Source: Paenibacillus guangzhouensis (GTDB taxonomy: Bacteria; Bacillota; Bacilli; Paenibacillales; Paenibacillaceae). Taken from it: DNA of 64,000 nucleotides. Shown piece after piece: positions 321 to 61,601 of this stretch (positions within the stretch are counted from its first letter, which is position 1; each line of letters opens with the position of its first letter). The stretch is taken from positions 3,348,001-3,412,000 of the forward strand of contig NZ_CP045293.1 of assembly GCF_009363075.1 (NCBI RefSeq), given 5' to 3'. Under the pieces are notes generated by a model that had not been told where the DNA came from, ran no database searches, and saw only the letters and a program-made list of their open reading frames with translations. The position numbers and the translations under genes were made by a program.

Positions 321-369
321 TATTTCTACCCGTTAGCAAAACGCGGCTGCCGATCATGCCAGCAACCGC
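321..369 (+). repeat. Dispersed CCCGTTAG element, left box plus type A hairpin
   Basis: The left box CCCGTTAG is at 329-336, followed by a GCGGCTGCCGAT...GCAACCGC hairpin at 343-369. No recognisable right box follows, so this copy is decayed on that side. Confidence 0.75.
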
Positions 370-491
370 AATTTAATGATTGGCGATGTGTTAAAACAAA
401 GTTGAAATTAAATAACTTTTACGGGAAGCCATTTTGACTTCCCTTAATTCGCTTTTAAAGAAATTTATACATCAATCATTTTTTATTTTCA

Positions 492-1199
492 TTAAACGTA
501 AATATGTTTTTTCAGCCATTGTCTGAAATACTGCAACTGTTCCTCAGAATGGAAATAGTGTTCTCCATTCTCCATTACTTGCAAATTACAGTTAAAACGT
601 TTTTGAAATTCAGATACAACGTCAAACTCACATAAGTTATCTTCTGAACCATAGAGAATTGAAGTTGGATTATTCCAAGCAACAATGGGATGTTCTTTCA
701 CATAACAGTAGTAATCCCAATAGAGAGTTTGTCCAATAGGTGTAGAAATTTCTTTCTCTATTTTTAGTCTACTCTCACTTACGTTAAACCATGTCATCAT
801 ATTATTTATGATACGTTCCATATTTACCACAGGAGAGAGAAACAAGCACTGCTTCAACGGCTCATGGCTATATTCTAATAGGCTAAAATATGCTCCCATG
901 CTACAAGCAAAAATGCTTATATGATTTGATAACGATTTTGCATAGGTCATAATTGTATTAAGGTCTTGAACACAGTTTTGAACTTTGCAAGGATAAGTAT
1001 CATCCTTACGGTCGCCATGTTGAGGCAAATCAAAACTAAGCACTTGATATCCTACTGCTGTTGCTTCTTCTGCAAATACAATAATCGAGTCATCTGCCTT
1101 ATTTGACATGTTACCATGCACCACCACAAATAACTTATCTGATTTGTCACCCCACAAAATTGCTGGAATGTTTTCTATTTTAATATTATTTTTTATCAT
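492..1199 (-). CDS. Alpha/beta hydrolase, esterase-like
   Basis: A 235-residue soluble protein with the alpha/beta-hydrolase pattern: an oxyanion HGN motif at residues 28-30, the nucleophile elbow ACSMG with Ser100, an acid in GSEDN (Asp187) and a late catalytic His in GEHYF (His214). There is no signal peptide, so it should be cytosolic. The start is supported by GGAGG ten bases upstream of ATG. Length is usual for small monomeric carboxylesterase-like or serine-aminopeptidase-like members. The elbow starts with Ala rather than Gly (A-x-S-x-G), a known variant. It stands alone between a decayed repeat and the methyltransferase gene, so the substrate cannot be inferred. Confidence 0.8.
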   Translation of the reverse strand: MIKNNIKIENIPAILWGDKSDKLFVVVHGNMSNKADDSIIVFAEEATAVGYQVLSFDLPQHGDRKDDTYPCKVQNCVQDLNTIMTYAKSLSNHISIFACSMGAYFSLLEYSHEPLKQCLFLSPVVNMERIINNMMTWFNVSESRLKIEKEISTPIGQTLYWDYYCYVKEHPIVAWNNPTSILYGSEDNLCEFDVVSEFQKRFNCNLQVMENGEHYFHSEEQLQYFRQWLKKHIYV

Positions 1200-1359
1200 T
1201 ACGATTTATCCTCCATGAAATGTATATATGGCTTTATTATAGTATATCTTCTATTTTCAACATCTATTTAAAACAATAGCCTGGTTGTGTCGAAATAATC
1301 TCTATACTCATCTCCAACGATCTTGTTTAACGAGAACAAGACGAGTACCTTCAAAGTCA

Positions 1360-2736
1360 TTATTCTCTTGGTTCCCGTAAGCTTAATAAAGATTTGTATG
1401 TAAACTTGTACAATTGAATCGCGTCTCTCCCATGGACTCTAACTAATTTAGGCGGCTTAGCATAAACAATACCGATTTTTTCATCAACTTCGTTCAGGTT
1501 CAATCCTTTTCTCATCATAGCATTCTTCAAATGAGTCTCTCTACTGCTAGGGAATATTACGTAAGCAACACTTTTATTATCTGTCTTCAAGAGTTCGTCA
1601 ATATCACTTGCCAGAATATCAAGGCTAATATCAAACGGCGGATCGCATACCACAATATCGAATTTCTTCATATATTTATTTTTCAACAGCTTCGTCAAAC
1701 CTTTTTTTAAATCATACTTCACAAACTTTAGACCTCCATTTTCTCTAAAACGGCTATCCCGTTCGAAAAGTACTATGTTTTTGTTCAAGTTATGTGCGTA
1801 CCGTGCTACGGATGGAGTCACCAAGCATGCAGTATAACTTTCACATAATTCAGCTAATCTTGCAGTTGTCTCGACCGAGAAAAAATACTGCATAAACTCG
1901 GAATGTTGGTTTAATAGAACATAAGATTCCGTATTGTTATAGGATAGCTCTACATATGGAAATCTTAAGTTATTTCTATGTGCATAAAGTCTGTCTATGT
2001 TGTTTGTATTCATTAATGATATAATATTTTTCTTATGAAATTCCAAGTCCATATCTTCATTTCTCTTCACGAATCTTAGCCATACGAAGCTGTTAGGAAA
2101 CCTGGTGCTGCCAATATAGTAATGGTAATAATCATACTCCATCTGCAATCCTAAGTCTTGAATAAGGTTCCATAGCTTCAGGACCCAGCCTGGTTTTGAA
2201 AGAATCACTAATCTCCCGTCTTTTTTTAACAATTTGCTTGATTTCAATAATATTAGCTCGAAGTAATTAAACTCTTCTCCAACTTCAAGTATGAAACGAT
2301 CGTCTGGTGCTTCCCATGAGCAATTAATCAGTTTTGCAGCATAACCTACTATTGCAGCATCAAAAGACTCTTCCCCATATTCTATAGGATCAGCATCAAA
2401 ATCAGAGTAAATAGGCTGGGTAGATCGATAACCCGACAGTAGTTGATTTATGTTTCCCCATACCGAATGATAGACGTCGTTGTAGGGTCCTGTTGCTTCT
2501 ATCACTAGCTTTTTCGGTGTGTAAAGATATGATACTAACAATGCTGCGACGCCCAAATGTGAGCCTATAGCAATCACATGGTCCGTATCCTTAATACAAC
2601 CAAAGTTAACGAAAGATAAGGCTGCTTTTAATCCAAAAACATCTGAAGCGATTACATGTAAAGATTCGTGTTCATACATGATTTCCAATGCACTGATTAC
2701 TTCTTCTTCATACGCATTTCTCCATACTTTATCCAT
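1360..2736 (-). CDS. Two-domain SAM-dependent methyltransferase
   Basis: 458 residues, apparently two Rossmann methyltransferase-like domains. The C-terminal half carries CLVTPSVARYA, a VLFERDSRF segment and KFDIVVCDPPF at about residues 360-375. This order is that of the N6-adenine-methyltransferase-like/EFM5-type family (PF10237), whose studied eukaryotic members methylate lysine. The N-terminal half has a degenerate SAM-binding region (VIAIGSHLGVAALLVSYLY at about 54-72) and a KKDGRLVILSK strand typical of the fold. I see no membrane segment. It starts at an ATG at 2736, preceded by AAGGAGG. It is a single gene without operon partners. The target (protein, nucleic acid or small molecule) is unknown. 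Confidence 0.7.
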   Translation of the reverse strand: MDKVWRNAYEEEVISALEIMYEHESLHVIASDVFGLKAALSFVNFGCIKDTDHVIAIGSHLGVAALLVSYLYTPKKLVIEATGPYNDVYHSVWGNINQLLSGYRSTQPIYSDFDADPIEYGEESFDAAIVGYAAKLINCSWEAPDDRFILEVGEEFNYFELILLKSSKLLKKDGRLVILSKPGWVLKLWNLIQDLGLQMEYDYYHYYIGSTRFPNSFVWLRFVKRNEDMDLEFHKKNIISLMNTNNIDRLYAHRNNLRFPYVELSYNNTESYVLLNQHSEFMQYFFSVETTARLAELCESYTACLVTPSVARYAHNLNKNIVLFERDSRFRENGGLKFVKYDLKKGLTKLLKNKYMKKFDIVVCDPPFDISLDILASDIDELLKTDNKSVAYVIFPSSRETHLKNAMMRKGLNLNEVDEKIGIVYAKPPKLVRVHGRDAIQLYKFTYKSLLSLREPRE

Positions 2737-3090
2737 TTGTTTAGGCCTCCTTTAAGTACAAGGCCTAACCATCGGTTTATTCATTTTTAAGAACAAAAAG
2801 GACTTCAAGCAATATCGCTCTTGTAGTCTCCCTAAAAATTCAGATATTAAATCATGAATCATTACGTTCTAAAGAGGTATGTCTTTTCATTGCTACCCTA
2901 AAAAGAAGTACACAAATAAACCTAATGGCTAGGCGTGTTTTCTTTGTCATTTTCAAATAAGAAAATGGGTTAGCAATGATATAAGATCATCGTGTACCTC
3001 CCTAGAAAAATAAATTCAAGATAATTCAAGTATAATAAGGGAAACGATAAATAATATTCCCAATACAATTTAGAGTCTTTCTTTACATAA
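2737..3090 (-). other. Intergenic region with a possible short leader ORF
   Basis: This is the 5' side of the methyltransferase gene. The only suggestive feature is a strong ribosome site (GGGAGG) at about 3002-2997 on the minus strand, followed by ATG at 2990 and a six-codon ORF (MILYHC), roughly 250 bases before the methyltransferase start. It could be a leader peptide or chance. No other gene was seen. Confidence 0.25.
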
Positions 3091-3129
3091 AAAGAAAGCC
3101 ACATCAGAATTTAGTCTAATGTGGCTTCT
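3091..3129 (-). terminator. Hairpin terminator downstream of the GNAT remnant
   Basis: AAGCCACAT and ATGTGGCTT arms are separated by about 14 bases. On the minus strand the stem is followed by CTTTCTTTTT, as in an intrinsic terminator. It sits on the hairpin side of the right box at 3150. Confidence 0.65.
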
Positions 3130-3149: not shown

Positions 3150-3182
3150 TATTAAGCTATTGTGTCCCGTTAGCTTAACCGA
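3150..3182 (+). repeat. Dispersed CCCGTTAG element, right box
   Basis: TTAAGCTATTGTGTCCCGTTAG matches the right-box consensus. The hairpin beside it at 3091-3129 has an unrelated stem sequence, so this may be a copy in which the hairpin was replaced. Confidence 0.75.
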
Positions 3183-3294: not shown

Positions 3295-3768
3295 TCACAA
3301 TTCTTCTTTCAAGATAGCGTATTGATACGTATCCTGCCAGACAGGCTGTCCGTTTCCTGTTGTTTTAAAAAATACTTCCTTCATGAAAGTTCCTTCACGG
3401 CGCATCGATAGGCGTTCTAATAGTCTCCAGGAAGCAATGTTTTCAGGGTTACATAAAGCGATCACCCTACGTGCCCCTAATTCTTCAAAGCCGTACTTTA
3501 ATATCCTTTGGCAAGCTTCTGTCGCATATCCTTGTCCATAATAATCAGGATTAAAAATATATCCAATCATCCATGTAAGGAATTCTCTGGGATCTTTCTG
3601 ACTAAAATATACATGTCCAATCATTTTATTAGTATCTTTCAAACATACAGCCCAAAAAAGGTTATCCTTTGATCGTTCCTTCGCTATACTTTTGTAAATA
3701 CATATGTAGGGTATTCGCGAAACTTTTGAACTATCCTGCCCGTAAGCGCAACGCTGCTGCCGATTCAT
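3295..3768 (-). pseudogene. GNAT acetyltransferase, 5'-truncated by a repeat
   Basis: The downstream 130 residues are a good GNAT domain: beta strands around MIGHVYFS, the acetyl-CoA loop in YYGQGYATEACQ, and the NPENIASWRLLERLSM segment typical of RimJ-like acetyltransferases. The first 15-20 codons (NRQQRCAYGQDSSK) are not family sequence. They are the antisense of the repeat unit at 3728-3820. The usual N-terminal 50-60 residues (beta 1, alpha 1-2) are missing, and no ribosome site precedes the apparent start. I infer a dead gene whose 5' end was replaced by the element, although a shortened product cannot be excluded. Confidence 0.7.
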
Positions 3769-3820
3769 ACAGGCAGCCGCGTTTTATTATTAAGCTATCG
3801 TGTCCCGTTAGTTCAGCGAC
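3728..3820 (+). repeat. Dispersed CCCGTTAG element, full unit, type A hairpin
   Basis: Left box CTATCCTGCCCGTAAG at 3730-3746, hairpin with GCTGCTGCC...GGCAGCCGC arms at 3752-3781, right box AGCTATCGTGTCCCGTTAG at 3793-3811. It overlaps both the apparent 5' end of the GNAT remnant and the 3' end of the next pseudogene. Confidence 0.9.
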
Positions 3821-4346: not shown

Positions 4347-4492
4347 TCAAGTATCCTCCCAAGCAAAAAATTAATTCTTCTCTCTTTCAAAAAACATATT
4401 TCTGTTCCAAATTCTAGTGATGATTACACAATATTGTTTACGTTATCAATTACTGATAGGTTTCGAATATATCCATCCATATCCAACCCATA

Positions 4493-4517
4493 GAATCCTG
4501 CCCGTTAGCTCAATGAC
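4493..4517 (+). repeat. Dispersed CCCGTTAG element, solo left box
   Basis: AATCCTGCCCGTTAGCTCAA with no hairpin or right box following. It resembles a product of recombination between the two boxes of a full unit. Confidence 0.7.
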
Positions 4518-4700: not shown

Positions 4701-10307
<5,607 letters not shown>

Positions 10308-21242: not shown

Positions 21243-21321
21243 ATTATGTTTCATATTCACAGCAATCCAGGTAGGTTTGACACGTAACAATCAAGCCTAC
21301 AGGCAAGATAAAGTCATTGTT

Positions 21322-21419
21322 CTATCTAACTGCCTGTTACATCAATGAAATCGGCAGCTGATCGTTTGACCAGCTGCCTCTATATCGTAATTCAACTATT
21401 GTACCCGTTAGCGTGACCT
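21322..21419 (+). repeat. Dispersed CCCGTTAG element, full unit, type C hairpin
   Basis: Left box AACTGCCTGTTACATCAATGA, hairpin GGCAGCTGATCG..CCAGCTGCC (21352-21378), right box TTCAACTATTGTACCCGTTAG. The right box supplies the stop codon of the next gene (21408). Confidence 0.9.
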
Positions 21420-22025
21420 GACAAGATCTCCCCAAGGCGCATCATCGACTAAATATCGTACATCCGCATATGTTTGCCATGTTTGCCACGTTCCTTCAAT
21501 CTGACTTGTAACAGGCGGGCCGATTGTAAAAAGGCTTGGCAGCTTCTTTTGTTTGCCTTGACTTATAGATGCAATCAGCATGATCTTTTTAATGCGCGGT
21601 CCGATCAATCCGTCGATCATGGCGACCAAGAGCAGCGATAAAAGGACCGATATATTAAGCCACATTTGAGACAACCCCATCTGGGTTATGATCATTAGCC
21701 AAACCCCAGTAATAATAAGTATGGCTCCACCAATTTTAGGCAGGATGGCCCCTGTAAATTCGACAATTGAACATTTCTCATCTAGTTCAATAACTTGCTG
21801 TTTTTTGTTGCGTAAATCCTCAAATGACGTAATTTGAACATGTAATGAATCAACAATCTTACTTAATGTCCACACAGTTCCACCGGGTTCCTCATTCCAT
21901 TCAAACTGAGTCTTTGAAACAGGGTATGAGCTGAGTTCAGGAATAAGTGCATTCAGTGCCTTTAACATGTCATCAAGTGCATCGGTAATATAGCTTGTTG
22001 CGAAATATACGGTACTAGAGTTCAT
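21408..22025 (-). CDS. Hypothetical two-helix membrane protein
   Basis: 205 residues of unknown family. Two hydrophobic segments (about 92-112 and 122-142) split a soluble N-terminal half rich in acidic residues from a C-terminal tail containing GTWQTWQTYADVRYLVDDAPWGDL. The last codons and stop (RSR-stop) lie in the right box of the repeat, so the natural C terminus may have been longer. Ribosome site is weak (GGAT). It is isolated between two element copies and has no operon partner. Confidence 0.6.
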   Translation of the reverse strand: MNSSTVYFATSYITDALDDMLKALNALIPELSSYPVSKTQFEWNEEPGGTVWTLSKIVDSLHVQITSFEDLRNKKQQVIELDEKCSIVEFTGAILPKIGGAILIITGVWLMIITQMGLSQMWLNISVLLSLLLVAMIDGLIGPRIKKIMLIASISQGKQKKLPSLFTIGPPVTSQIEGTWQTWQTYADVRYLVDDAPWGDLVRSR

Positions 22026-22234
22026 TTCAATACATCCATTAGCCCAACCAATTCCGGTTAGTTCATTTATTTATTATCCCTTTACACTGCAGTCTCTTCC
22101 GTAACTTCCCTTATTTTGAGCTGTTACTAGAGATTCAAACTGCTCAATTCTGCCACTAGGAATTTCAATTCGCTCTTGTTTATAATTTAAGTCTTGATAA
22201 TTTCCTTGCTGTTTTTTCTGTTTCGATATTCAGC

Positions 22235-22329
22235 AATACTGCCCGTTAGTTGAGAAAAGGCAACCGATCACAAGAAGCCGGCTGCCTTCAAATGTCTTTA
22301 TTGAGTTATAGTGTCCCGTTAGCGCAATC
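22235..22329 (+). repeat. Dispersed CCCGTTAG element, full unit, type B hairpin
   Basis: Left box ATACTGCCCGTTAG, hairpin GGCAACCGATC..CCGGCTGCC, right box GTTATAGTGTCCCGTTAG. Confidence 0.9.
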
Positions 22330-22732: not shown

Positions 22733-22811
22733 ACGGTACACCTCCTAGCCTAATTGGGACTCACACTTAATTCACCCAATATTTAGGACGTTACTATCTA
22801 ACAAAGGTTGC

Positions 22812-22836
22812 GTTAAACTGCCCGTTAGCTTAACGC
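22812..22836 (+). repeat. Dispersed CCCGTTAG element, solo left box
   Basis: AAACTGCCCGTTAGCTTAACG with no hairpin. Here the box itself is palindromic (CGTTA-GCT-TAACG). Confidence 0.75.
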
Positions 22837-30280: not shown

Positions 30281-30293
30281 CAACTTCCGGAGT

Positions 30294-38383: not shown

Positions 38384-38412
38384 CAATCTTTTTATAAGAC
38401 AAACCTCGTTTT

Positions 38413-40740: not shown

Positions 40741-40929
40741 AAGGAGGTTTTTGACAATCATACCTCCATTAAGAATAATCCTCCCATTAGTATAGCTCCT
40801 CCCCCTAGGGACGTCTTTCGACGCCCCACAAGCAGTTTAGATCAAAAATTTCGCCTCACTTGTAGTGATGCAGATATAACTTTCTTATAAAAATTAGCGG
40901 GCTTCCGAAGCCTACTCGAAAATTGAAAT
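40741..40929. other. Intergenic, nothing supported
   Basis: A lone AAGGAGG at 40740-40746 has no open frame behind it. No gene, RNA or clear site was recognised here or at 41006-41242. Confidence 0.3.
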
Positions 40930-41005
40930 TCAACTATCCTACCCGTTAGCGCAACGCGGCTGCCGATCGATGCCGGAAGCCGCGTTTTTGTATATTTATT
41001 AAGAG
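40930..41005 (+). repeat. Dispersed CCCGTTAG element, left box plus type A hairpin with T-run
   Basis: TCAACTATCCTACCCGTTAG, then GCGGCTGCCGATCGATGCCG..CCGC followed by GTTTTTG. The right box is reduced to TTTATTAAG. Confidence 0.85.
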
Positions 41006-42210: not shown

Positions 42211-42368
42211 TTAAACTATCCTGCCCGTTAGTTGAGAAAAAGCAACCTATCACATAGCAATGGATTGCCTGATTATTAATATCGAACACATTAGTTTTAT
42301 TTTTTTTAATGAGCAAATAAAGTGCCGCGTTAGAGCAGCTCCTATGCACATGTTACCCGTTAGCATAC
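42211..42368 (+). repeat. Dispersed CCCGTTAG element, expanded unit
   Basis: Left box TTAAACTATCCTGCCCGTTAG, hairpin AAGCAACCTATCACATAGCA..GGATTGCC, then about 70 extra bases before the right box ATGTTACCCGTTAG. Confidence 0.75.
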
Positions 42369-44596: not shown

Positions 44597-44598
44597 TT

Positions 44599-44645
44599 CC
44601 ACTATTCTGCCCGTTAGCGTAGCGAGGCTGCCAAACGTTGCAGTA
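44599..44645 (+). repeat. Dispersed CCCGTTAG element, left box plus decayed hairpin
   Basis: CCACTATTCTGCCCGTTAGCG, then GAGGCTGCCAAACGTTGCAG. Confidence 0.7.
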
Positions 44646-44723: not shown

Positions 44724-46142
44724 TCACTTGCCCTTCAACCACTGAAACGGTGTCGTATTGAAAAAAAGGTTCGGATTGACCTGCACATTATGCGCCCAAA
44801 AGGTGAAGTGCAGATGCGGACCTGTCGAGAAGCCTGTGGTGCCTACGAGACCGATGATATCACCCTGCTTCACCCGATCGCCCGCTTTTACGCGTAGTTC
44901 GGAGAGATGGGCATACTGCGAGAAAAGCCCCATTCCATGGTCGATGTAAACAGAATTTCCGGTTAGATACATGCTTTCGGCCAGTACGACTATACCGTCG
45001 TTGGTCGCTTTGATCGGGGTGCCTTCCTTCGCAGCCAGATCAATAGCCATATGGGCTCTGTCGTACTTCCCGTTCACATAACGGGTGTATCCATAAGGTG
45101 TCGTCAAGATCCCTTCAACCGGCTGGACGAAAGGGCTGTTAAAAAGAAACTCCGGCTCCGACTTGCTGCGTGCAAGATCGATTTTCTTATGATCTGCCTG
45201 AATCCGCTGCGTATCCTGACGCATGCTCTCCATTTGCTGTGTTACTTTCAGGTATTGTGTCTCGAACTTCTTCGCGTGAATCGTCAGCGTTTGATCGCCG
45301 ATCGAATACTTCCCAGGCTTAGCCTCAATGGTTAAGGGAAGATAGGTGAAGTAACCGTCTCCAAAAGGCTCCAGGGTATACGTTTTACCCAACCACTCAA
45401 CCTTCCCCGGCTTGTTATGGCGAACAAGGACGACATCTCCTGGTGCAGATGTTTCCGGCAGGAGTGTCCACTCCGAGTGGATTACGGATTTGGCGATATC
45501 GGCTGAAGCGTACATAGCCGCCTCCTTTTTCATACGAAGAAGCCGATCTTTCTCTTCGATCATGCTTGCACGAATGCCCGGTGTGACCTCATTGCTCCAG
45601 GTTTGTCCTCCATCTGCCGTCACCAATAATGGAGTCTGCAGCTCCTTTATATCCTCAACGAGTGCCCACCCGATCCGGTCCGTCAGAAATTGTGATTGTT
45701 TGACAAGAAATGCTTTAGATCCAACCGTTAGTGTGTCAGGCTGTGGATGCTTGCGCAAGTCAAGTAGTCCGAGCGTCACTGCATCTGCGACCACATTACC
45801 CTCAGTCGGATCGTTCGTCATACTTGCTTCCGCCTCCTGCCAATGCCCGCCTCCATCATCCGTCTTCACCACGCCGTCTTTATATCTCACCCAGCCATGT
45901 TCGAAGTCAAACATATGAAAATCAAGTACATTTTGATGGATAAGCTCCGCTGATTTCTGGTACATGGCATCCGCAGGATGTCCCTCTTTCTGATTAAGCG
46001 TTGGTGTCAATCCCGACAGATGTCTTCCGTTGTACACGACGATACCAACCGCCAATGAGCAGAAGCTCATTAGTAGCAGCCAATACTTCGGCGAGTAAAG
46101 CAGTGAAGATCGGCGCTCGTGACGAATCTTTTGCGGTTTCAT
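44724..46142 (-). CDS. M23 metallopeptidase with Ycf48-like N-terminal repeats
   Basis: 472 residues: an N-terminal membrane anchor (about 18-38), then two beta-propeller-like turns (VKTDDGGGHWQEAEA; LLVTADGGQTWSNEV) of the BNR/Ycf48 type, a middle beta domain, and a C-terminal LytM/M23 domain. The zinc motif is AHMAIDLA (His and Asp), with IDHGMGLFSQYAHL and GPHLHF providing the remaining His. It should cut peptidoglycan cross-bridges or act as an activator outside the cell. ATG at 46142 follows AGGGAAG; a frame opens 14 codons earlier without a site. Confidence 0.85.
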   Translation of the reverse strand: MKPQKIRHERRSSLLYSPKYWLLLMSFCSLAVGIVVYNGRHLSGLTPTLNQKEGHPADAMYQKSAELIHQNVLDFHMFDFEHGWVRYKDGVVKTDDGGGHWQEAEASMTNDPTEGNVVADAVTLGLLDLRKHPQPDTLTVGSKAFLVKQSQFLTDRIGWALVEDIKELQTPLLVTADGGQTWSNEVTPGIRASMIEEKDRLLRMKKEAAMYASADIAKSVIHSEWTLLPETSAPGDVVLVRHNKPGKVEWLGKTYTLEPFGDGYFTYLPLTIEAKPGKYSIGDQTLTIHAKKFETQYLKVTQQMESMRQDTQRIQADHKKIDLARSKSEPEFLFNSPFVQPVEGILTTPYGYTRYVNGKYDRAHMAIDLAAKEGTPIKATNDGIVVLAESMYLTGNSVYIDHGMGLFSQYAHLSELRVKAGDRVKQGDIIGLVGTTGFSTGPHLHFTFWAHNVQVNPNLFFNTTPFQWLKGK

Positions 46143-46249
46143 ACAGACATACTTCCCTTCACATGAGAGTATTAATGGTATCATCTTCTCCTAATCCAAT
46201 TTTTAAGAGTCATGCTCCAATTCTATCATATAAGTAAATTCATGGTAAT

Positions 46250-46347
46250 TTAACTATGCTGCCCCTTTAGCGGAACGAGGCTACCGATTCATGCTGGTAG
46301 CCTCGTCCTTTTTGTTTATTGTATTATCGTGTCCCTTTAGTTCAACA
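46250..46347 (+). repeat. Dispersed CCCGTTAG element, full unit with matched variant boxes
   Basis: Both boxes carry the same change (CCCTTTAG for CCCGTTAG), and the hairpin keeps pairing through compensated bases (GGCTACC..GGTAGCC for GGCTGCC..GGCAGCC). Confidence 0.9.
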
Positions 46348-48137: not shown

Positions 48138-48168
48138 ACAGGCTACCGGCTGAACGGTAGCCTGTTCC
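48138..48168 (+). terminator. Hairpin downstream of the DJ-1-like gene
   Basis: ACAGGCTACC..GGTAGCCTGT with an 8-base loop; it looks like a bare type A hairpin and lies immediately before a full unit. Confidence 0.6.
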
Positions 48169-48170
48169 GC

Positions 48171-48265
48171 AACTATCCTGCCCGTTAGTTTAACGAGAAA
48201 AGCAACCGATCGATAATCGGCTGCCTTCTTGTTGCTTTTAAACTATAGTACCCGTTAGTACAAAA
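48171..48265 (+). repeat. Dispersed CCCGTTAG element, full unit, type B hairpin
   Basis: CAACTATCCTGCCCGTTAG, hairpin AAGCAACCGATCGATAATCG..CTGCCTT, right box AAACTATAGTACCCGTTAG, ending three bases before the stop of the SDR gene. Confidence 0.9.
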
Positions 48266-48267: not shown

Positions 48268-49062
48268 TTAAAATATTGTCGGTACCAATCCACCGTCCAT
48301 GCGGATCGGAGAACCTTTGAAGGCGGAGGCCATCGGGCTGCAGACGAAAGCAGTCAATCGGCCGATCTCCGCAGGTCTTATAAACCTTTGGATTTCGGAT
48401 TGAGGCAGGTTCTTCGTCATAAAGTCTTTTTCTTTAGCCTCAAATGTCATCTCTTCGTTCAAATAAATGCTCTCGATGATCTGCTGCACGTTCTCAGAGA
48501 GGGTTGGTCCCGGCAGGATCGTGTTCACGGTAACCTCCGCTCCGCGGGTCAGCTTGGACAAGCTCTTAGACAACGACAACAGCATGGATTTGGTCACGCC
48601 GTATTGAGGCATCTGTCCAGAAGGCATGACGGCTTCCTCGCTCGCAATAAAGATAATGCGGCCGTATTCGCGGTTTAGCATAGAAGGCAAATAAAACTTG
48701 GTTAAGCCGTTAGCCGCGAGAACGTTCGTGCGGAAGTACTTCTCCCATACGGCATCGTCTACGTCGTTGTAGGACATGATCTCATAGATGCCCATGCTAT
48801 TGACGAGAATATCGACGTGGGGGAACTTCGCGATTAGAGCTTCTCTTTGCCTCGCATCGACGAGATCGGCCGTTGCATTCCGAGGTTCCGTCTCCGGGAA
48901 CATCGCTTGGATCTCCGCGACCGTGTGCTCTACGTCATCGTTGTTCCGACCATTTATGAGAACGTGAACGCCTTCTCTGGCAAGTTCAAGGGCAATCGCT
49001 TTTCCTATGCCTCTGGATGATCCCGTTACTAGAGCAGTCTTATTCTTCAATCCCATATCCAT
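48268..49062 (-). CDS. Short-chain dehydrogenase/reductase
   Basis: 264 residues, classical SDR. NAD(P)-binding TGSSRGIGKAIA at 14-25, the N-S-M-G motif (VNSMGIYE, in place of NNAG), the catalytic YGVTK pair and PGPT after the active site. ATG at 49062 follows AAGGAGTG by seven bases. It lies 50 bases downstream of the AraC-type regulator gene on the same strand, which probably shares its transcript or controls it. Substrate unknown. Confidence 0.9.
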   Translation of the reverse strand: MDMGLKNKTALVTGSSRGIGKAIALELAREGVHVLINGRNNDDVEHTVAEIQAMFPETEPRNATADLVDARQREALIAKFPHVDILVNSMGIYEIMSYNDVDDAVWEKYFRTNVLAANGLTKFYLPSMLNREYGRIIFIASEEAVMPSGQMPQYGVTKSMLLSLSKSLSKLTRGAEVTVNTILPGPTLSENVQQIIESIYLNEEMTFEAKEKDFMTKNLPQSEIQRFIRPAEIGRLTAFVCSPMASAFKGSPIRMDGGLVPTIF

Positions 49063-49112
49063 CTGTCTGCACTCCTTATGTCTAGGATAGAGATAATGAT
49101 ACTTAATTTCGC

Positions 49113-50141
49113 CTACTCGGTAACTAGCGAGGAGCGCCAATTCTCTTGCGCGACGCGCCAATTAGCGGGAGTCTCCCCTTCCCATGAGCGGAACGCGCGA
49201 TAGAACGAATTCTGGTCCTCGTAGCCGACGAGAAAAGCGACCTCTTTGATCTCCAACGACGGGTCTGCCAAGTAAGCGAGGGCCTGCTCGTGCCTGGTTT
49301 GCGTCAGCAACTGCTTGAAGCTTGCGCCTTCGTCCGTCAGCCTGCGCTGTAAGGTACGATCGCTCATCCCCAGCTCGGAGGCTACGGTTTGAATGTCGAT
49401 TCGCCCTCTCGTTAGGCATCGAGACAAGATCCACTTCACTTTATCGCTCATGGTGAGCTGGCTCTGTCGTTCATCCAGCGTACGTTCCAAAGCGGGAGTT
49501 AGAATCTCGAGAAGTTCTTCGTTGTACGACACGAAAGGACGGTCCAGATCGTCGCGATTCAACGTTAGCCGATTGCGGTCCGCCCTCGTCCGAACGCGGC
49601 AACCGAAATAACCTTCAAGGGCTTGAACGTCGCCCATGGGGTGTATGAATTCAACAGAGCGAGCTGTCAGATGACGGCCGGTACCCCGGCGCCCTAGCTC
49701 AAGCAGGTAGGCGAGCGTGATGCCGATAAGCACCGGCGGTCCGGGTTTCTCGCTATGCTGACACTCCAATTCAATTGAGCATTGCTCGCCTTCTTCCCGA
49801 ATTTGCAAGTTTTCCGGAGGGCACATTTGCTTATAGCGCGCCATTCGGTTCAGCGCGTCCCGGTAGTCGCGAGCGTGGAAGGTCGCCAGGGCGGCCGGCG
49901 GATACTGAGCCGTCTTGTACGCGGTCGCAAGCTTGACAATTCCCGTAGCGGTGTCTCCGACTTGTTCAGAAAAGGCTTGCCAGATCGAGTAATATTGGGC
50001 AGTCGTGACGAACGGTTCGTTGATGACGGTTAGCGGTAGACGGGCTTGGCGCGCTACGTCAAGTGGTTCTACCCCTATTCCTCTCAGGCTTGTCCAGAAG
50101 CCTGACGCGATCTTGATACGGTCTGCGGAAGGAGCGTTCAT
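49113..50141 (-). CDS. AraC-family transcriptional regulator (PF12625 type)
   Basis: 342 residues. The long N-terminal part (SGFWTSLRGIGVEPLDVARQ, LRDxxxx-like ARDYRDALNRMARY) fits the Arabinose_bd/PF12625 domain of OruR-like regulators. The C-terminal HTH pair is RIDIQTVASELGMSDRTLQR and EIKEVAFLVGYEDQNSFYRA. ATG at 50141 follows GGAGG nine bases upstream. Higher GC than most neighbours. Its promoter region contains the palindrome at 50175-50201. Confidence 0.9.
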   Translation of the reverse strand: MNAPSADRIKIASGFWTSLRGIGVEPLDVARQARLPLTVINEPFVTTAQYYSIWQAFSEQVGDTATGIVKLATAYKTAQYPPAALATFHARDYRDALNRMARYKQMCPPENLQIREEGEQCSIELECQHSEKPGPPVLIGITLAYLLELGRRGTGRHLTARSVEFIHPMGDVQALEGYFGCRVRTRADRNRLTLNRDDLDRPFVSYNEELLEILTPALERTLDERQSQLTMSDKVKWILSRCLTRGRIDIQTVASELGMSDRTLQRRLTDEGASFKQLLTQTRHEQALAYLADPSLEIKEVAFLVGYEDQNSFYRAFRSWEGETPANWRVAQENWRSSLVTE

Positions 50142-51007: not shown

Positions 51008-51035
51008 TTAAGCTATAGTGCCCCGTCAGTTGAAG
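51008..51035 (+). repeat. Dispersed CCCGTTAG element, right box, decayed
   Basis: TTAAGCTATAGTGCCCCGTCAG keeps the right-box layout with two changes. Confidence 0.65.
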
Positions 51036-51069: not shown

Positions 51070-51513
51070 TTATGATCTACCGATGGGGTACCCAACTACA
51101 ACTTTTTTGCCCACTTTGTCATAAATAAAGTTCCCTCCTAGGTTCTCAGACAAAAAACGCAACGGCACAAAGATACGACCATCTTTTAAGGTTACTTGCG
51201 CATCCAGGTTCACTTTCTTTCCGTTAATAGTTGCTTCCTGCGCCCCGACACTTATCTGTATGCTCACTTGGTTGACCTTGTTAATAATATTGACTGTCTT
51301 CGATATGTAATCGAAGGTATAAATAAACTGAGTTGGATCATCAAATGCACGCAATGGCACTAGTGTGCGGCCCTTCACCACTAGCACATTTTCCTGTTGT
51401 TCCCCATTCACATAAACGTTAAGCGGTGTTACCGGCACTGCGGCGAATAACAGTATGTGCGCAGCTACAATAACCGTCATTATAAATGCGGAAATAAGAA
51501 ACAATTTTCTCAC
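51070..51513 (-). CDS. Copper amine oxidase N-terminal-like secreted protein
   Basis: 147 residues from GTG (GAGG seven bases upstream). The TM/signal VRKLFLISAFIMTVIVAAHI is followed by two Cu_amine_oxidN1-type repeats: VLVVKGRTLVPLRAFDDPTQ and VTLKDGRIFVPLRFLSENLG. Such stalk domains are very common on Paenibacillus surface proteins; here the domain stands alone. No copper centre is expected. It probably has a cell-wall or adhesive role. Confidence 0.8.
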   Translation of the reverse strand: MRKLFLISAFIMTVIVAAHILLFAAVPVTPLNVYVNGEQQENVLVVKGRTLVPLRAFDDPTQFIYTFDYISKTVNIINKVNQVSIQISVGAQEATINGKKVNLDAQVTLKDGRIFVPLRFLSENLGGNFIYDKVGKKVVVGYPIGRS

Positions 51514-51588
51514 TATAATTCCTCGATTCATATCTAATCTTCATACAACCAAGTCGGATTCATAATTAAAAAATGAATTGTACGTAAA

Positions 51589-51717: not shown

Positions 51718-51834
51718 GGAATAACACCGCCACTATAAAAGATTCAGCAACTTCATTATACCATATATTGGAGCCCATATTCGTTGAATCGCTTCTACGC
51801 GAAGTCGGTCTATTGAAGTAACTACACGATTTTG

Positions 51835-51928
51835 AACTATCCTGCCCGTTGCTTCAACGAAGAAGGGAGCAGTTGCCACGGCGATCTGCTCCCTGTCTAA
51901 TTCAACTATCGTTTCCCTGTTAACTAAA
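51835..51928 (+). repeat. Dispersed CCCGTTAG element, full unit, type D hairpin
   Basis: TGAACTATCCTGCCCGTTGC, hairpin GGGAGCAGTTGCC..GATCTGCTCCC, right box TTCAACTATCGTTTCCCTGTTAAC. Confidence 0.8.
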
Positions 51929-53182: not shown

Positions 53183-54004
53183 TTACTGGAGCTTAACCTT
53201 CATCTCCAGCTCGTTCAAAAACGTAACGGGCGTCATTCGCTTGGTCATCACCTGAAGCGGCACTTTGCGGTCAACCGCCGGGAATTCAAGCTCGTAGTGG
53301 TAAACGCCGTTTTTCACGCTGATCAATTCCTTGCGGCTGTAATCCATGGCCTTCCCATTTTCCAGAAGCCATGTTCCGACGTTTTGAATTGAGGCCGTCT
53401 TCCCTTCGATCGACAACGTAAGAACGGTCCGTTTCTTTTCGAATTTAACGTCCGTTACAGTCATGGTGCCGATCTTGCCTTGATCCAACTTAACCGGATA
53501 ATTGTCCGATAGTTTCGCCGTTACGCTGGCTTTGTCCGAATACTTTGTACTTTTATCATCATAATTGCCTCCTACATAGGGCAAGATGATAAGTTCCTTC
53601 GGTTTGCCTTTTAAGGCGCCCAGTTTCTCTTTATAATAACGGTCAAACGTGCCGTCCGGCTTTTCTCGTCCTTTGTCTTCCGCCTGAATCCGATCGTAAA
53701 TCCATCCGTTGCTGTCCATGACGAGATAGTTCATGATCATCAAATTGCGGTCAATTTCTGGATCCAGAGTCTCGGGCATGATCCGTGAAATGAGATATTC
53801 CGTCGACTGCGGCGTGGTCGTTAAAGATTCCAGTTCAAATACGGCTCCCCCGTATTCTTTTGTTATTGCCGGATTCAGCTTGAAGCCGGAGCTCACGGCA
53901 CTTTGCCCGGCTTCCACTTGGGAAGCCGCTTGAACGGCATGCGACGACCAAGTTCCTCCGATTAATAACGCTGCACTTAATAATGCGATGGTTGTTTTTT
54001 TCAT
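53183..54004 (-). CDS. Secreted paralogue 1 (DUF5643-like)
   Basis: 273 residues with signal peptide TTIALLSAALLIGGTWSSHA (cleavage near VQA). The mature part resembles the extracellular beta domain of anti-sigma factors: AVFELESLTTTPQSTEYLIS, YLVMDSNGWIYDRIQAEDKG, VLTLSIEGKTASIQNVGTWL. It has no membrane anchor or sigma-binding part. ATG at 54004 follows AAAGGAGG; the frame is open further upstream but a promoter falls there (54098). About 80 percent identical by eye to the gene at 54249. Under an ECF promoter, possibly a soluble decoy or envelope-stress protein. Confidence 0.75.
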   Translation of the reverse strand: MKKTTIALLSAALLIGGTWSSHAVQAASQVEAGQSAVSSGFKLNPAITKEYGGAVFELESLTTTPQSTEYLISRIMPETLDPEIDRNLMIMNYLVMDSNGWIYDRIQAEDKGREKPDGTFDRYYKEKLGALKGKPKELIILPYVGGNYDDKSTKYSDKASVTAKLSDNYPVKLDQGKIGTMTVTDVKFEKKRTVLTLSIEGKTASIQNVGTWLLENGKAMDYSRKELISVKNGVYHYELEFPAVDRKVPLQVMTKRMTPVTFLNELEMKVKLQ

Positions 54005-54097
54005 GATCATTTCCTCCTTTATCTGATGAGACGAAATACACATCTTGCTGCGCTTAGGAAGCGGACCGGGCCCGGAAAAGATGCGCTTGTTTCTTAC

Positions 54098-54131
54098 ACT
54101 ATATAGGCGAAACAAAATGATATGAGGTTCA
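54098..54131 (-). promoter_or_regulatory. ECF-type promoter of paralogue 1
   Basis: TGAACC-N16-CGCCTATATAGT, about 95 bases upstream of ATG 54004. Confidence 0.75.
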
Positions 54132-54248: not shown

Positions 54249-55061
54249 CTATAGCGGTAGCTTAACCCTCATCTCCAGTTCGTTCAAAAACGTAACGGGT
54301 GTCATACGCTTGGTCATCACTTTCAGCGGCAATTTACGGTCAACCGCTGAGAATTCAAGCTCGTAATGGTATACGCCGTTTTTCACGCTGATCAATTCCT
54401 TACGGCTGTAATCCATGGCCTTTCCATTTGCTACAAGCCATGTTACAACACTCTGAATCGAAGCCGTCTCCCCTTTGATCGACAACGTAAGAATAGTCCG
54501 CTTCTTCTCAAATTTTACGCCCGTTACGGTCATGGTGCCGATCTTCCCTTGATCCAGGGTCACCGGAAATTTATTCGTCAGCTTGGCCGTCACGTCATCT
54601 TTTCCCGCCGACTTTATGCTTGTACCTCCCACATAGGGCTTAAGAATGAGTTCCTTCGGTTTGCCCTTTAATGGCCACAGTTTCTCTTTATAATAACGGT
54701 CGAACGTGCCATCCGGCTTTTCGCGCATTTTGTCTTCCGCCTGAATACGGTCGTAAATCCATCCGTTGCTGTCCATGACGAGATAGTTCATTTCCATTAT
54801 ATTGCGGTCAATTTCTGGATCCAGAGTCTCGGGCATGTTCCGTGAAATGAGATATTCCGTCGACTGCGGCGTGGTCGTTAAAGATTCCAGTTCAAATACG
54901 GCTCCCCCGTATTCTTTTGTTATTGCCGGATTCATCTTGAAGCCGGAGCTCACGGCGCTTTGGTCAGCTTCCGATTTGGAAGCCGCCTGAATAGCTGGTG
55001 ACGATAAGGCTCCTCCCAACAATAACGCTGCGCTTAATATCGCAATGGTCGTTTTTTTCAT
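54249..55061 (-). CDS. Secreted paralogue 2 (DUF5643-like)
   Basis: 270 residues, signal peptide TTIAILSAALLLGGALSSPA, same body as paralogue 1 with differences concentrated after KGKPKELIL and in the lysine-rich middle. ATG at 55061 (third of three) follows GGGGG. Promoter at 55152-55183. The pair is a recent tandem duplication that kept its promoter. Confidence 0.75.
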   Translation of the reverse strand: MKKTTIAILSAALLLGGALSSPAIQAASKSEADQSAVSSGFKMNPAITKEYGGAVFELESLTTTPQSTEYLISRNMPETLDPEIDRNIMEMNYLVMDSNGWIYDRIQAEDKMREKPDGTFDRYYKEKLWPLKGKPKELILKPYVGGTSIKSAGKDDVTAKLTNKFPVTLDQGKIGTMTVTGVKFEKKRTILTLSIKGETASIQSVVTWLVANGKAMDYSRKELISVKNGVYHYELEFSAVDRKLPLKVMTKRMTPVTFLNELEMRVKLPL

Positions 55062-55151
55062 CATCATTTCCCCCTTATTTGATGAAACAGATACACATCT
55101 AGGCCCCGTTATATATTCGCACACCGGGATGATGTATTTTTTTGTTTCTAC

Positions 55152-55183
55152 ACTATAGGCGAAGAAAATAATTAGAAGGTTCA
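55152..55183 (-). promoter_or_regulatory. ECF-type promoter of paralogue 2
   Basis: TGAACC-N16-CGCCTATAGTGT, about 90 bases upstream of ATG 55061. Confidence 0.75.
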
Positions 55184-55254
55184 TATATGCAACCAACGAC
55201 ATGGTAAAAAATGAAATCGTATTGACGACTTTACCATTGAACTTGCCAAAAAAG

Positions 55255-55355
55255 TTAAGCTATCCTGCCCGTTAAATCAATGAAAATGGCAGCTGATCGT
55301 TTGGCCAGCTGCCTCTATATCGTAATTCAACTATCGTGTCCCGTTAGCGCAACGA
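55255..55355 (+). repeat. Dispersed CCCGTTAG element, full unit, type C hairpin
   Basis: TAAGCTATCCTGCCCGTTAA, hairpin GGCAGCTGATCG..GGCCAGCTGCC, right box TTCAACTATCGTGTCCCGTTAG. Close in sequence to the unit at 57128. Confidence 0.9.
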
Positions 55356-55487
55356 CTTACTCTGTTGAATTTCGTGTTCCCCAACATAAAGTGGCATCAG
55401 AGAAGGCGGATCGTACCTTATCGCGGCCTTTAAACGACAAAATGGTGCCGATAGCCATAGCCCCATAGCCGCAACGAAATAATGAGC

Positions 55488-56402
55488 CTAATCCGACAGT
55501 GCCCGCATGATGTTGGATTTCGCCTCTGCCACAATCGCTTCATTCCCGTCATCGACCGCTTGCATTAAGATCAGTATGGGGATGTATACCGCGATCAGCC
55601 GCGCCAGCAGCTTCGTTTCCTCGTCCGCTCCTCCGTACGTTTCGAAAAACACGCCGCGAGCGTAAGGTGGTAAAAAGCTATAAGCAACGCTCAAATCGCA
55701 AGCCGGATGGCCTACGCTCAGATCGCCCCAATCAATGATGCCGGAAACGATCCCGTTCTCATTCACAAGCATATTTTTGAAATGAAGATCGCCATGTAGC
55801 AGTGCATTCACCGCCTCGACACGGTCCTTTTGCAGCCTGCTAATATACGCTTCGATCACACCGGACTCCTCCGGCGACAAGTGTTCAACCACCTTCGATA
55901 GAAAGCCCTCCAATTTCACTTTGCGCGATGCTATGTCCGTCAAGTTTCGATGATCTTGCTGAACTCCGCACTTCAGCGCCGCCTGCACCGGAAACTCATG
56001 CAATCTCCGCAAAAATTTCGCCAGCGTCTCTGCCGATAAAGCCCGGCGTTCTTCCGTCAAACCGATTGGGAAATCTCCTGGCACGTAGGCATAGCCAAGA
56101 AATGGTGCCGGGTATTCGTCACTTGCTTCGCCATAAAACAACGGTTTCGGATAGGGGATGGTCATATATGCCTCCAGCTTCGGCAGCAGCTTCCCTTCCA
56201 TACGAATCGAGCCAACTGCAATCGTTCTTCTTGGAAACCGGAACACGTACTCGTCACCGATGAGAAAAACCGTATTGTCCCAGCCCCAGCCCAATCGCTT
56301 CACTTGCTTCGATGACAGCTGAGGGAATTGTCTGCCGATCAGCGTCCGCGCCTGCTCTTCGTTAACCTCCCACTCCGCATCCCATACATTCGTTCCTCCC
56401 AT
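55488..56402 (-). CDS. Aminoglycoside-phosphotransferase-family kinase
   Basis: 304 residues of the APH/choline-kinase fold. Catalytic loop LLHGDLHFKNMLV and metal-binding IIDWGDLSVGHP are canonical; FLIGDEYVFRFPRR holds the ATP-lysine/arginine strand. Resembles macrolide 2'-phosphotransferase-like members, but resistance is not shown. ATG at 56402 follows GGAGGCAG. Monocistronic, higher GC than its surroundings. Confidence 0.8.
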   Translation of the reverse strand: MGGTNVWDAEWEVNEEQARTLIGRQFPQLSSKQVKRLGWGWDNTVFLIGDEYVFRFPRRTIAVGSIRMEGKLLPKLEAYMTIPYPKPLFYGEASDEYPAPFLGYAYVPGDFPIGLTEERRALSAETLAKFLRRLHEFPVQAALKCGVQQDHRNLTDIASRKVKLEGFLSKVVEHLSPEESGVIEAYISRLQKDRVEAVNALLHGDLHFKNMLVNENGIVSGIIDWGDLSVGHPACDLSVAYSFLPPYARGVFFETYGGADEETKLLARLIAVYIPILILMQAVDDGNEAIVAEAKSNIMRALSD

Positions 56403-56462
56403 GAATTGTCTGCCTCCTCGTTCCTTACGTTATTTAGATGTTTACATTCCCTGGAAGTTACG

Positions 56463-56556
56463 CATAACTGACCGTTAGTTAAACAGGCTGCCGATCCATG
56501 CCAGCAGCCGCGTTTGAGTTATTTATTAAGCTATAGTGTCCCGTTAGCGTAATGAA
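56463..56556 (+). repeat. Dispersed CCCGTTAG element, full unit, type A hairpin
   Basis: CATAACTGACCGTTAG, hairpin GGCTGCCGATCCATGCCAG..CCGC, right box AGCTATAGTGTCCCGTTAG. Ends nine bases before the Nudix stop. Confidence 0.9.
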
Positions 56557-56564: not shown

Positions 56565-57035
56565 TTAGTTTATATCGCCAACATAGCAAAGACTTGGTTT
56601 ATTTCCGCTGGCGATTCTAAGTAATTGAGGGGCTAACTGCTTTGGATAAAACCGTAATTTTTCTAATTGATCAACCACAACCCATTCTATCCCGATCTGG
56701 TCTGGATCTGGATTTGGGGGAGTTAGAGGTATATCATTCTCGGACTGTATACTGCATAGAAAAATAGGGCTGACTATGTGTATATTTTTATTAGCTTCTG
56801 CATTCTCATGATTGGCTCCAATAAACTCTCTAAGGAATAATAACTCGTCAACGTTGACTGTTATACCAACCTCTTCGAATACTTCTCGGCACACAGCTTG
56901 CTCTATTGTTTCTCCAAACTCTTGTTTGCCACCTGGAAGGATGTAAGATACATCCCCGTCATCATCCTTTTTTTTGATAGTTAAAATCTTATTATTTTTT
57001 ATAATGACAGCTTGAACACCCACGCTAACCTTCAT
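56565..57035 (-). CDS. Nudix hydrolase
   Basis: 156 residues. The Nudix box G36-x5-E42-x7-R50-E51-x2-E54-E55-x-G57 is complete (GGKQEFGETIEQAVCREVFE). It hydrolyses nucleoside-diphosphate-linked substrates in the cytosol with Mg. IGIEWVVVDQLEKLRFYPKQ near the C terminus is the usual cap. ATG at 57035 follows AGGAGGAGAG. Substrate not readable. Confidence 0.9.
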   Translation of the reverse strand: MKVSVGVQAVIIKNNKILTIKKKDDDGDVSYILPGGKQEFGETIEQAVCREVFEEVGITVNVDELLFLREFIGANHENAEANKNIHIVSPIFLCSIQSENDIPLTPPNPDPDQIGIEWVVVDQLEKLRFYPKQLAPQLLRIASGNKPSLCYVGDIN

Positions 57036-57127: not shown

Positions 57128-57222
57128 GTCAGCCTGTTATTTATATGAAAACTGCAGCTGATCATTTGACCAACTGCCTCAATATCGTAATTCAACTATC
57201 GTGTCCCGTTAGCTTAATGACT
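57128..57222 (+). repeat. Dispersed CCCGTTAG element, full unit, type C hairpin
   Basis: Decayed left box (AGCCTGTTATTTATATGAAA), hairpin GCAGCTGATCATTTGACCAACTGC, right box TTCAACTATCGTGTCCCGTTAG. Confidence 0.85.
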
Positions 57223-60832: not shown

Positions 60833-61060
60833 CGGGGTACGTTGTAACGGACCCGATCAAGGATCGATTAAGCTCGGATAGATAGTATAATCATAAGATT
60901 AGAAGTAGGTACCGCGGCGACCTGCTCCTGATCTTTGAACTGGCAGGATAACGCAATGACAAGGATCTTGGGCTAGATGGCGATGCAAGCTTTTTTCAGT
61001 ATGTCATATCAATTATCTAATATATTGATAAAATATGGTATAACGAAAACATTTATAATT
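60833..61060. other. Intergenic, weak hairpin only
   Basis: AGTAGGT..ACCTGCT at about 60904-60926 is a weak stem; no T-run terminator and no gene were recognised. Confidence 0.3.
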
Positions 61061-61139
61061 AAATTATCCTGCCCGTTAGCTTAACAAGCAAAAAAGAGCC
61101 GACTCCAAGCAAGCTCCTCAATTCACGCGTCCCATTATA
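61061..61139 (+). repeat. Dispersed CCCGTTAG element, left box, changed hairpin, decayed right box
   Basis: AAATTATCCTGCCCGTTAGC, hairpin AGAGCC..AAGCTCCT, then GCGTCCCATTA. Confidence 0.7.
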
Positions 61140-61146
61140 AACTAAT

Positions 61147-61443
61147 CTATACCCTAGCCGCGCTTTTTTCTCTCTTTCTAACAATTGAGATGATGATAAA
61201 GTTAATCCAAGTAATTACGGGGATTGACATTACTAATATATATCGATCATGAAAATCAATTCCAAACAATCCTGATTCCTCGTCTAAGTGGTAGAGAAAC
61301 CAGGAGACCATTCCCAATATTATCGCGTTAATAACAAAAGCAGAAAGCATACCTAACCATTTGTATTTTTTATTCCTCATTATCATGATAGATAAAGCGG
61401 TTGACATGATAAAAGAAAAAACAATAACAATGAAGTTCAACAT
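61147..61443 (-). CDS. Small three-helix membrane protein
   Basis: 98 residues with hydrophobic segments at about 3-23, 32-50 and 68-88. Charged C terminus SIVRKREKSAARV faces the cytosol by the positive-inside rule. ATG at 61443 follows GGAGG by eleven bases; a GTG lies closer but inside the site. Family unknown. Confidence 0.6.
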   Translation of the reverse strand: MLNFIVIVFSFIMSTALSIMIMRNKKYKWLGMLSAFVINAIILGMVSWFLYHLDEESGLFGIDFHDRYILVMSIPVITWINFIIISIVRKREKSAARV

Positions 61444-61533
61444 TTTATTGTACACCTCCTACTACGATATTGGGTCGCCTATATAACATTCACGTGGTCG
61501 GCCAATCTCACAATCCAATAATACCATGTTTTG

Positions 61534-61601
61534 GAACTATCCTGCCCGTTAGCGCAACGCGGCTGCCGATCCATGCCGGCGGCCATGAGTTGTTTATTAA
61601 C
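61534..61601 (+). repeat. Dispersed CCCGTTAG element, left box plus type A hairpin
   Basis: GGAACTATCCTGCCCGTTAG then GCGGCTGCCGATCCATGCCG; the right box is lost. Confidence 0.85.

Follow-up and report, generated by a model that had tools for sequence, protein, structure and literature searches.

A 64,000-nucleotide stretch of the Paenibacillus guangzhouensis genome (contig positions 3,348,001–3,412,000; hereafter the window) carries many copies of two short repeats, a left (L) and a right (R) box, which border single genes and small hairpins. We conclude, with a probability of roughly 0.87, that these boxes serve as core sites for site-specific recombination, by which arrays of gene cassettes are put together and rearranged as in integrons. 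This reading draws on the boxes and their arrays, on the boundaries of shared segments, on a junction placed to within a few bases, on the integrase neighbourhood and on a patchy distribution among genomes, all as seen in sequence comparisons.

L and R box repeat each other in the same direction and enclose a hairpin, a layout that the initial annotation of this DNA had described correctly. Its figure of about 28 copies also agrees with our count of 28 box matches at up to three mismatches in the window, 18 for the left box (chance mean 0.27) and 10 for the right box (chance mean 0.09), all 28 of them on the + strand. A position-weight scan with L and R matrices built from three arrays of the P. 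guangzhouensis genome (A, B and C, below) found 35 boxes on the + strand of the window at a score of at least 12.4. The matrices give a 26-bp L consensus, TTNAACTA-TCCTGCCCGT-TAGCTNAA, and a 27-bp R consensus, TTNARCTA-TCGTGTCCCGT-TAGCTTAA, and in each box inverted 8-bp outer arms (TTNARCTA / TAGCTTAA) flank the core. Across the three arrays, an L box is followed by an R box at a spacing of 45–80 bp in 59 cases, 36 of them at 70–73 bp, and an R box followed by an L box at less than 110 bp was found nowhere. As a separate observation, GGCAGC or GCTGCC is present in 51 of the 59 units of arrays A–C despite their differing link sequences. The window has no Rfam match at the gathering score, and we found no description of such a system in the open-access literature, preprints and most subscription papers lying outside this search; the repeat thus still belongs to no named family known to us, as the initial annotation had said, and an earlier description that we did not see is possible.

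Searching the 6.95-Mb genome with the pattern CTATNNTGNCCCGTTAG, one mismatch allowed, returned 90 matches compared with 4 for a reversed control, and all 90 lie inside three blocks: array A (1.47–1.82 Mb; minus strand except for one match), array B (2.11–2.25 Mb; plus strand) and array C (3.28–3.43 Mb; plus strand), which holds the window and has its last L box at 3,428,717. When the three blocks were fetched, 223 of 229 pattern matches followed the direction of their block, in a count where one box can match both patterns. The initial annotation had noted neither this uniform orientation nor the inverted arms of the boxes. Sites in array A are densest close to the integrase gene, their number per 10 kb being 13.5 over the first 20 kb, 9–10 up to 80 kb and 0.2–2.8 beyond, and the box score drops with distance from it (rho −0.32, p 2e-4, n = 130).

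The genes between the units have the appearance of cassettes. The gene to the right of a unit points at that unit in 54 of the 59 complete units, and 14 of the 26 intervals shorter than 3 kb between neighbouring complete units hold a single minus-strand gene and no other, counting open frames of at least 70 amino acids (aa) and not curated genes. By Pfam, the cargo of the window comprises an APH-family phosphotransferase, a NUDIX protein, a short-chain dehydrogenase, an M23 peptidase and DUF proteins; PADLOC matched one of ten window proteins, the NUDIX protein, to the candidate family PDC-S07. Units that lie mostly past gene 3' ends and contain a hairpin might instead be intrinsic terminators or other RNA elements of gene ends, with the boxes as part of that function, and 38 of 59 units fold more stably as RNA of the gene strand (mean 1.7 kcal/mol). 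However, TTTT is no commoner on the gene side (16 versus 15 of 59), Rfam has no match, and the box-bounded segments, the core identity switch and the linked integrase described below are left unexplained. An intrinsic terminator would be a G+C-rich hairpin with a T-run behind it on the gene strand; hairpins are present, but the negative T-run test speaks against termination as the main function, and we hold this explanation to be very unlikely. The link module may still terminate transcription in a secondary role, and the hairpin may insulate cassettes transcriptionally.

The ends of segments shared between different contexts were compared with the boxes. We tested 113 homologous segments of this kind, with 216 testable ends and a box counted within 20 bp, after dropping segments that overlapped an integrase, tandem repeats less than 10 kb apart, and segments below 200 bp, below 80% or above 99.9% identity. 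Both copies end at a box at 45 of the 216 ends (0 in nine of ten shifted controls and 4 in the other); if one copy suffices, the number rises to 81 (controls 4–17). In the window, the cargo module at 55331–56478, which runs from R box to L box and has no assigned strand, recurs in P. pabuli and P. radicibacter: in either species 906 of 915 columns of its gene agree, while the alignment drops to 62.5% and 71.7% in the link hairpin that follows and to about half in the sequence beyond the R box. Plasmids searched for distant matches to window 55331–56547 gave none. Arrays A and B have in common both a gene and its link, the latter at 44 of 45 columns, and diverge at the R box. Judging from these comparisons, the mobile item is a gene with its box halves, sometimes accompanied by the hairpin.

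The point of exchange can be placed more narrowly. Identity across 35 L junctions stays near 0.9 through CCC, is 0.66 at the next G and reaches background after the conserved TTA, and at 32 R junctions it climbs between the G/T preceding CCC and CCC itself; the same switch is seen with one junction per distinct flank (25 for L, 23 for R). Junction pairs had been selected for one similar and one dissimilar side, the position of the switch inside the box being no part of the selection. The switches thus place the junction in the CCC-G of the CCC-GTTAG core, within a few bases. RecA-dependent homologous recombination between repeats of other origin could in principle shuffle genes in a similar way, as the repeats are numerous and similar, but the stretch shared at a junction is no longer than a box, which is short for homologous recombination, and identity is lost on one side; moreover, the switch falls at the same place in all these distinct flanks, and a recombinase gene sits between the same boxes, so that we regard RecA as a most improbable source of the pattern.

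One species pair shows an occupied and an empty state of the same place. A 3.6-kb stretch in genome G001 is absent from G002, whose box halves (left ...CTGCCC, right TTTAGTTGA...) are found at the two ends of the stretch in G001, a difference that may be a gain or a loss, in either direction. It is the one clean L-to-L event among six candidates from an empty-site search between arrays of three genomes (G002 and G001 each in part); a second candidate is ambiguous, and the remaining four lie away from boxes or were left unexamined. The initial annotation had held that a lack of empty sites among relatives would speak against mobility, and with this pair mobility is not refuted.

The initial annotation had, more broadly, proposed a mobile, dispersed intergenic element. 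A real repeat unit linked to mobility survives from that proposal; a dispersed, self-moving element does not, given that all 90 genome matches lie in three blocks, that the boxes border genes recurring in different contexts and that the junction falls inside the boxes. A rival reading keeps a dispersed element, a non-autonomous one resembling a miniature inverted-repeat transposable element (MITE), in which L-hairpin-R is a cut-down version of L-integrase-R that inserts itself beside genes. The integrase element and the short unit fill the same L-to-R slot, as autonomous and non-autonomous forms would, each is present in several copies, and the same cargo can be seen beside different links. 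This explanation is nevertheless unlikely in view of the uniform orientation in the three blocks, the clustering of sites, the homology that spans genes from box to box in unlike surroundings, and the one clean empty/occupied pair, which differs by 3.6 kb ending inside L boxes and not by the size of a unit. Repetitive extragenic palindromic (REP) sequences, bacterial interspersed mosaic elements (BIMEs) and MITEs resemble the units in being short, numerous and intergenic with a hairpin; they differ in that the boxes here are direct repeats, form one-way arrays and mark segment borders. The inverted ends and two orientations by which REP and MITE elements are recognised were not found.

The best candidate for the enzyme of the proposed recombination system lies outside the window. 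The intact integrase gene of array A encodes a 280-aa tyrosine recombinase (1,813,156–1,813,998, + strand) and is situated just past the last minus-strand site; array B has a copy with 99% identity (2,157,546–2,158,385, − strand), and in array C a 28-aa C-terminal integrase remnant adjoins the last L box. The protein contains Phage_integrase and SAM-like domains and scores below the cut-offs of the XerC (195.4 against 335.15 bits), XerD (194.1 against 329.6), XerA (194.8 against 220) and IntI (TIGR02249; 90.8 against 265) profiles. In the genome search the TIGR02249 match skips model positions 183–239, which are the IntI-specific region, and none of 17 genome matches reached the TIGR02249 cut-off. 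The closest solved structures by sequence are the Pyrococcus abyssi XerA-like protein 4a8e and Escherichia coli XerD 1a0p; for IntI4 (2a3v), the best matching stretch covers residues 203–267 only. By its sequence, then, the recombinase is XerA/XerD-like and without the IntI insertion. Among 29 aligned sequences, H229, R232, H255, Y264, K162 and K165 are invariant and R138 is nearly so, residues which we take to be catalytic from knowledge of the family. Viral contigs held no relative of the integrase, nor of the one window protein searched, and nine phage records hold relatives at 29–37% identity. Two further features of the integrase locus deserve mention: the array A gene is followed by a broken partial tandem copy (L026:14014-14564) in pieces of 82% and 92% identity, and the 5' leader between R box and start codon (e.g. 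L026:13070-13155) is conserved, with an inverted repeat of the AAACCTCC...GAGGTTTT type. This leader occurs in many Paenibacillus-type copies and is possibly regulatory.

Integrase genes and boxes are closely linked in other genomes as well. Around integrase genes in the best 80 of 179 loci, some of which overlap, a box model from the P. guangzhouensis genome alone found 13 boxes on the integrase strand and 573 on the other. Among 59 full-length copies whose flanks were long enough, an L box lies within 160 bp on the 3' side of the integrase in 35, an R box within 160 bp on its 5' side in 32 and both in 23, compared with 0 of 197 in shifted controls; the sequence beyond the integrase-proximal R box differs among aligned loci. 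That R box may correspond to the primary recombination site (attI) of integrons, with the L box on the other side a second candidate for the point of entry. The integrase thus often occupies the same L-to-R slot as the short hairpin. Across 394 genomes of the family, an integrase match at E 1e-60 is present in 65, many of these matches being partial or interrupted, and at least one exact site in 116. The repeat is present in other Paenibacillus genomes and not in the window alone, which again leaves mobility unrefuted by the checks that the initial annotation had named. At least ten exact sites occur in 12 of the 65 genomes with integrase versus 4 of the 329 without, and at least one in 40 of the 65. 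Clusters of sites without a full integrase exist, for example in G001, a genome of the same genus with no match at E 1e-50 or better.

Beyond the family, a plasmid relative used as query detected the integrase in 26 of 398 genomes and 18 of 146 genera of the class Bacilli. Over family and class together, three genomes have 52, 80 and 98 sites. Fourteen plasmids carry a relative at E 1e-40, eight of them at 42–53% identity and the others at about 34%. We built a tree starting from 59 loci; 54 of them contained a matching frame no shorter than 230 aa, and 50 distinct rows were used. It joins Paenibacillus-type and Bacillaceae/plasmid-type integrases apart from four Xer-like proteins of P. guangzhouensis (100/99) and divides the integrases into two main clades and one outlier; the tree carries a long-branch warning among the four Xer-like rows and contains no IntI row, so that kinship to IntI is judged from the profile scores.

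The second clade has other cores in the same layout, e.g. R = AACTAAAGCACCCGTTAGTT and L = AACTAACCTGCCCCGTTAG. On CP053689, a 250-kb plasmid with the record name Arthrobacter citreus and second-clade boxes, an R box lies at most about 100 bp from the 3' end in 13 of the 16 genes that lie right of the integrase on the minus strand, and L boxes lie 57–72 bp ahead of eight R boxes. Genome G647 has 98 second-clade R sites, mostly in one-way blocks, versus 0 in the control, and such sites were matched in 7 of 8 genomes tested, some with only one or two. In loci L173, L175 and L179 the integrase lies between L and R box in reversed orientation, and several other class-Bacilli loci had no clear boxes beside the integrase in the 1.5-kb flanks that were fetched. 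Part of the CP053689 array searched against plasmids matched, besides itself, three records covering 2–7% at 65–80%, so that cassette sharing is not shown for the second clade. We also observed that contig C1 of G647, from another family, has several mostly one-way blocks and would be a good model for a large array.

A mechanism consistent with these footprints can be outlined. The XerA/XerD-like recombinase would bind each 26–27 bp box at its inverted arms, with strand exchange in the CCC-GTTAG core, in a conservative reaction on double-stranded DNA. The array alternates between cargo modules, which run from R box to L box and hold one or a few genes mostly pointing at the next unit, and link modules, which run from L box to R box and hold a hairpin of roughly 55 bp or the integrase gene. 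By an L x L or R x R exchange, a circle made up of a cargo and a link module, one of each, would leave or enter the array, and exchange between like boxes would preserve both orientation and alternation. This like-with-like rule is suggested by the two different cores, and the integrase as recombining enzyme and the circular intermediate are likewise what we infer. Solo L boxes could be products of L x R events. The integrase at the end of array C is truncated, so that mobilising the cassettes of C would depend on the intact copies in A and B working in trans.

Several observations weigh against the proposal that the boxes are recombination sites of cassette arrays. Recombination activity itself is deduced from footprints in sequence, and both ends lack a box in 51 of the 113 segments. 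Solo and degraded boxes are numerous, several intervals of the window hold more than one gene, and the outer arms of a box show no covariation (L p 0.38, R p 0.82). The fall in site density along array A is not smooth, with 2.0 per 10 kb at 250–300 kb, and in array B and many other loci the sites lie on both sides of the integrase, unlike in a classical integron. With the box model from one genome, no L box was recognised at 24 of the 59 integrases and no R box at 27, and exact sites, one or more, also occur in 76 of the 329 genomes that lack an integrase match. Finally, the idea that the window module at 55331–56478 is shared from R to R was rejected, the P. pabuli and P. radicibacter matches running from R to L with unlike hairpins.

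Along the window, the boxes and units lie on the + strand and the cargo genes on the − strand. Units were seen near the positions reported in the initial annotation, and those at 21325, 34341 and 57128 turned out to have at least one degraded box. Box matching and the weight scan both found an R box at 3152–3178 (core 3157–3173), a complete unit at 3726–3816 (L core 3731–3746, hairpin, R core 3795–3811) and a solo L box at 4488–4513 (core 4493–4508). No box was scored by the weight scan between 4513 and 21320, which makes this part of the array look like ordinary chromosome; the 1868-aa protein encoded at 4701–10307 of the window has four stretches matching Golvesin_C, and its gene contains an internal repeat spaced at 474 bp. 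The unit at 21320–21416 has a degraded L core (21325–21340), a hairpin and an R-position box (21396–21411) that is one base short, at which the 3' end of a 205-aa cargo gene is found (21408–22025; DUF2269 match just below cut-off). A complete unit at 22229–22327 (L core 22234–22249, R core 22306–22322) is followed by a 123-aa cargo gene without Pfam match (22370–22741), between R 22306 and L 22813; no R box was found beside this latter L box (22808–22833) or the one at 27494–27519. Next to a complete unit at 30287–30373 (L core 30292–30307, R core 30352–30368) lies the cargo gene of a 677-aa DUF5054 protein (30401–32434), between R 30352 and L 32687; this L box (32682–32707) was found by the weight scan, and a further one at 33507–33532 by box match and weight scan.

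In the second half of the window, the unit at 34341–34438 consists of a degraded L box (about 34341–34357), link sequence and an R core (34417–34433), and at 38412–38470 an L box (38417–38432) with link sequence, but no recognised R box, precedes the cargo gene of a 170-aa DUF3231 protein (38535–39047). L boxes follow at 40934–40949 with link sequence (together 40929–40992), at 42216–42231 with the start of link sequence (42211–42254) and at 44602–44617 (44597–44622), then a 486-aa M23 peptidase cargo gene (44724–46184) and a unit at 46249–46345 (L-position box 46254–46270, link sequence, R core 46324–46340). The unit at 48168–48263 (L core 48173–48188, link sequence, R-position box 48243–48258 one base short) adjoins a 297-aa short-chain dehydrogenase cargo gene (48268–49161). 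An R box (51013–51029, within 51008–51034) and an L box (51837–51852, within 51832–51857) followed by link sequence enclose the cargo gene of a 153-aa Cu_amine_oxidN1-domain protein (51070–51531). Tandem genes at 53183–54115 and 54249–55202, the first with a DUF5643 match, share stretches of 86–91% identity. The recurring module at 55331–56478 contains the 304-aa phosphotransferase-family gene (APH, PF01636; 55488–56402) and is bounded by complete units at 55255–55352 (L core 55260–55275, R core 55331–55347) and 56458–56552 (L core 56463–56478, R core 56531–56547). A 156-aa NUDIX cargo gene (56565–57035) and a unit at 57128–57217 (degraded L about 57128, link sequence, R core 57196–57212) come next, and L boxes at 61064–61079 (61059–61084) and 61537–61552 with link sequence (61532–61595) enclose a possible 102-aa cargo gene without Pfam match (61147–61455).

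Integrons are a known platform for collecting and shuffling single genes. If the system described here is active, Bacilli have a separate, widespread cassette machine of the integron kind, which would offer a test of how cassette capture can work with neither the IntI domain nor single-stranded attC sites, explain a class of puzzling intergenic repeats, and make the boxes markers for locating cassette genes of soil bacteria. We think it fairly probable that Bacilli possess their own equivalent of the integron, built independently of IntI from a XerA-like recombinase, with double-stranded two-core sites, a like-with-like L/R alternation of cargo and link, and two or more clades in which integrase and boxes have coevolved, carried on chromosomes and plasmids, and that it may be a main route of single-gene exchange in this group. 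Integrons are reported as extremely rare in this group, and the IntegronFinder 2.0 paper names only one complete integron in Firmicutes (PMC9024848).

The system is like Xer/dif in that the nearest solved relatives of its recombinase (4a8e and 1a0p) are XerA-like and XerD proteins, and cores of 26–27 bp with inverted arms resemble dif in length. The integrase differs in falling below the XerC, XerD and XerA cut-offs and in being patchy, often multi-copy and related to plasmid proteins, and the genome has 90 matches to one box pattern, not one site per chromosome. The pdif modules of Acinetobacter plasmids, which depend on XerC/XerD, are likewise gene modules bounded by short tyrosine-recombinase sites; pdif sites alternate in orientation and use host Xer proteins, whereas the sites here are one-way and have a separate, linked recombinase.

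The comparison with integrons is the closest. Earlier work defines an integron by an IntI-family integrase with an IntI-specific additional domain (PMC2426708, PMC4792948, PMC8138268) and describes attC as a folded single strand with paired R and L boxes (PMC4792948). An attC reading of the units was rejected: by DNA folding, at least five base pairs form between L and R box in only 9 of 59 units on the site strand and 14 of 59 on the gene strand. In its working the system is like an integron, but we do not file it as one, the tests for an IntI domain and for a folded attC site both having been negative. The two share a tyrosine recombinase gene with a long cassette array whose sites have one orientation, as found here on testing, sites that thin out away from the integrase (array A), cargo common to species in different contexts, a junction next to GTT, and arrays without a full integrase, like clusters of attC sites lacking integron integrases (CALIN). 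They differ in that the recombinase here is below the IntI cut-off and without the IntI insertion, that its gene lies between an L and an R box with sites on both sides in many loci, and that the genes of array A point toward it. The site is also of another kind, two direct-repeat cores around a hairpin, both of which show junctions, in contrast to attC, one palindrome that folds single-stranded.

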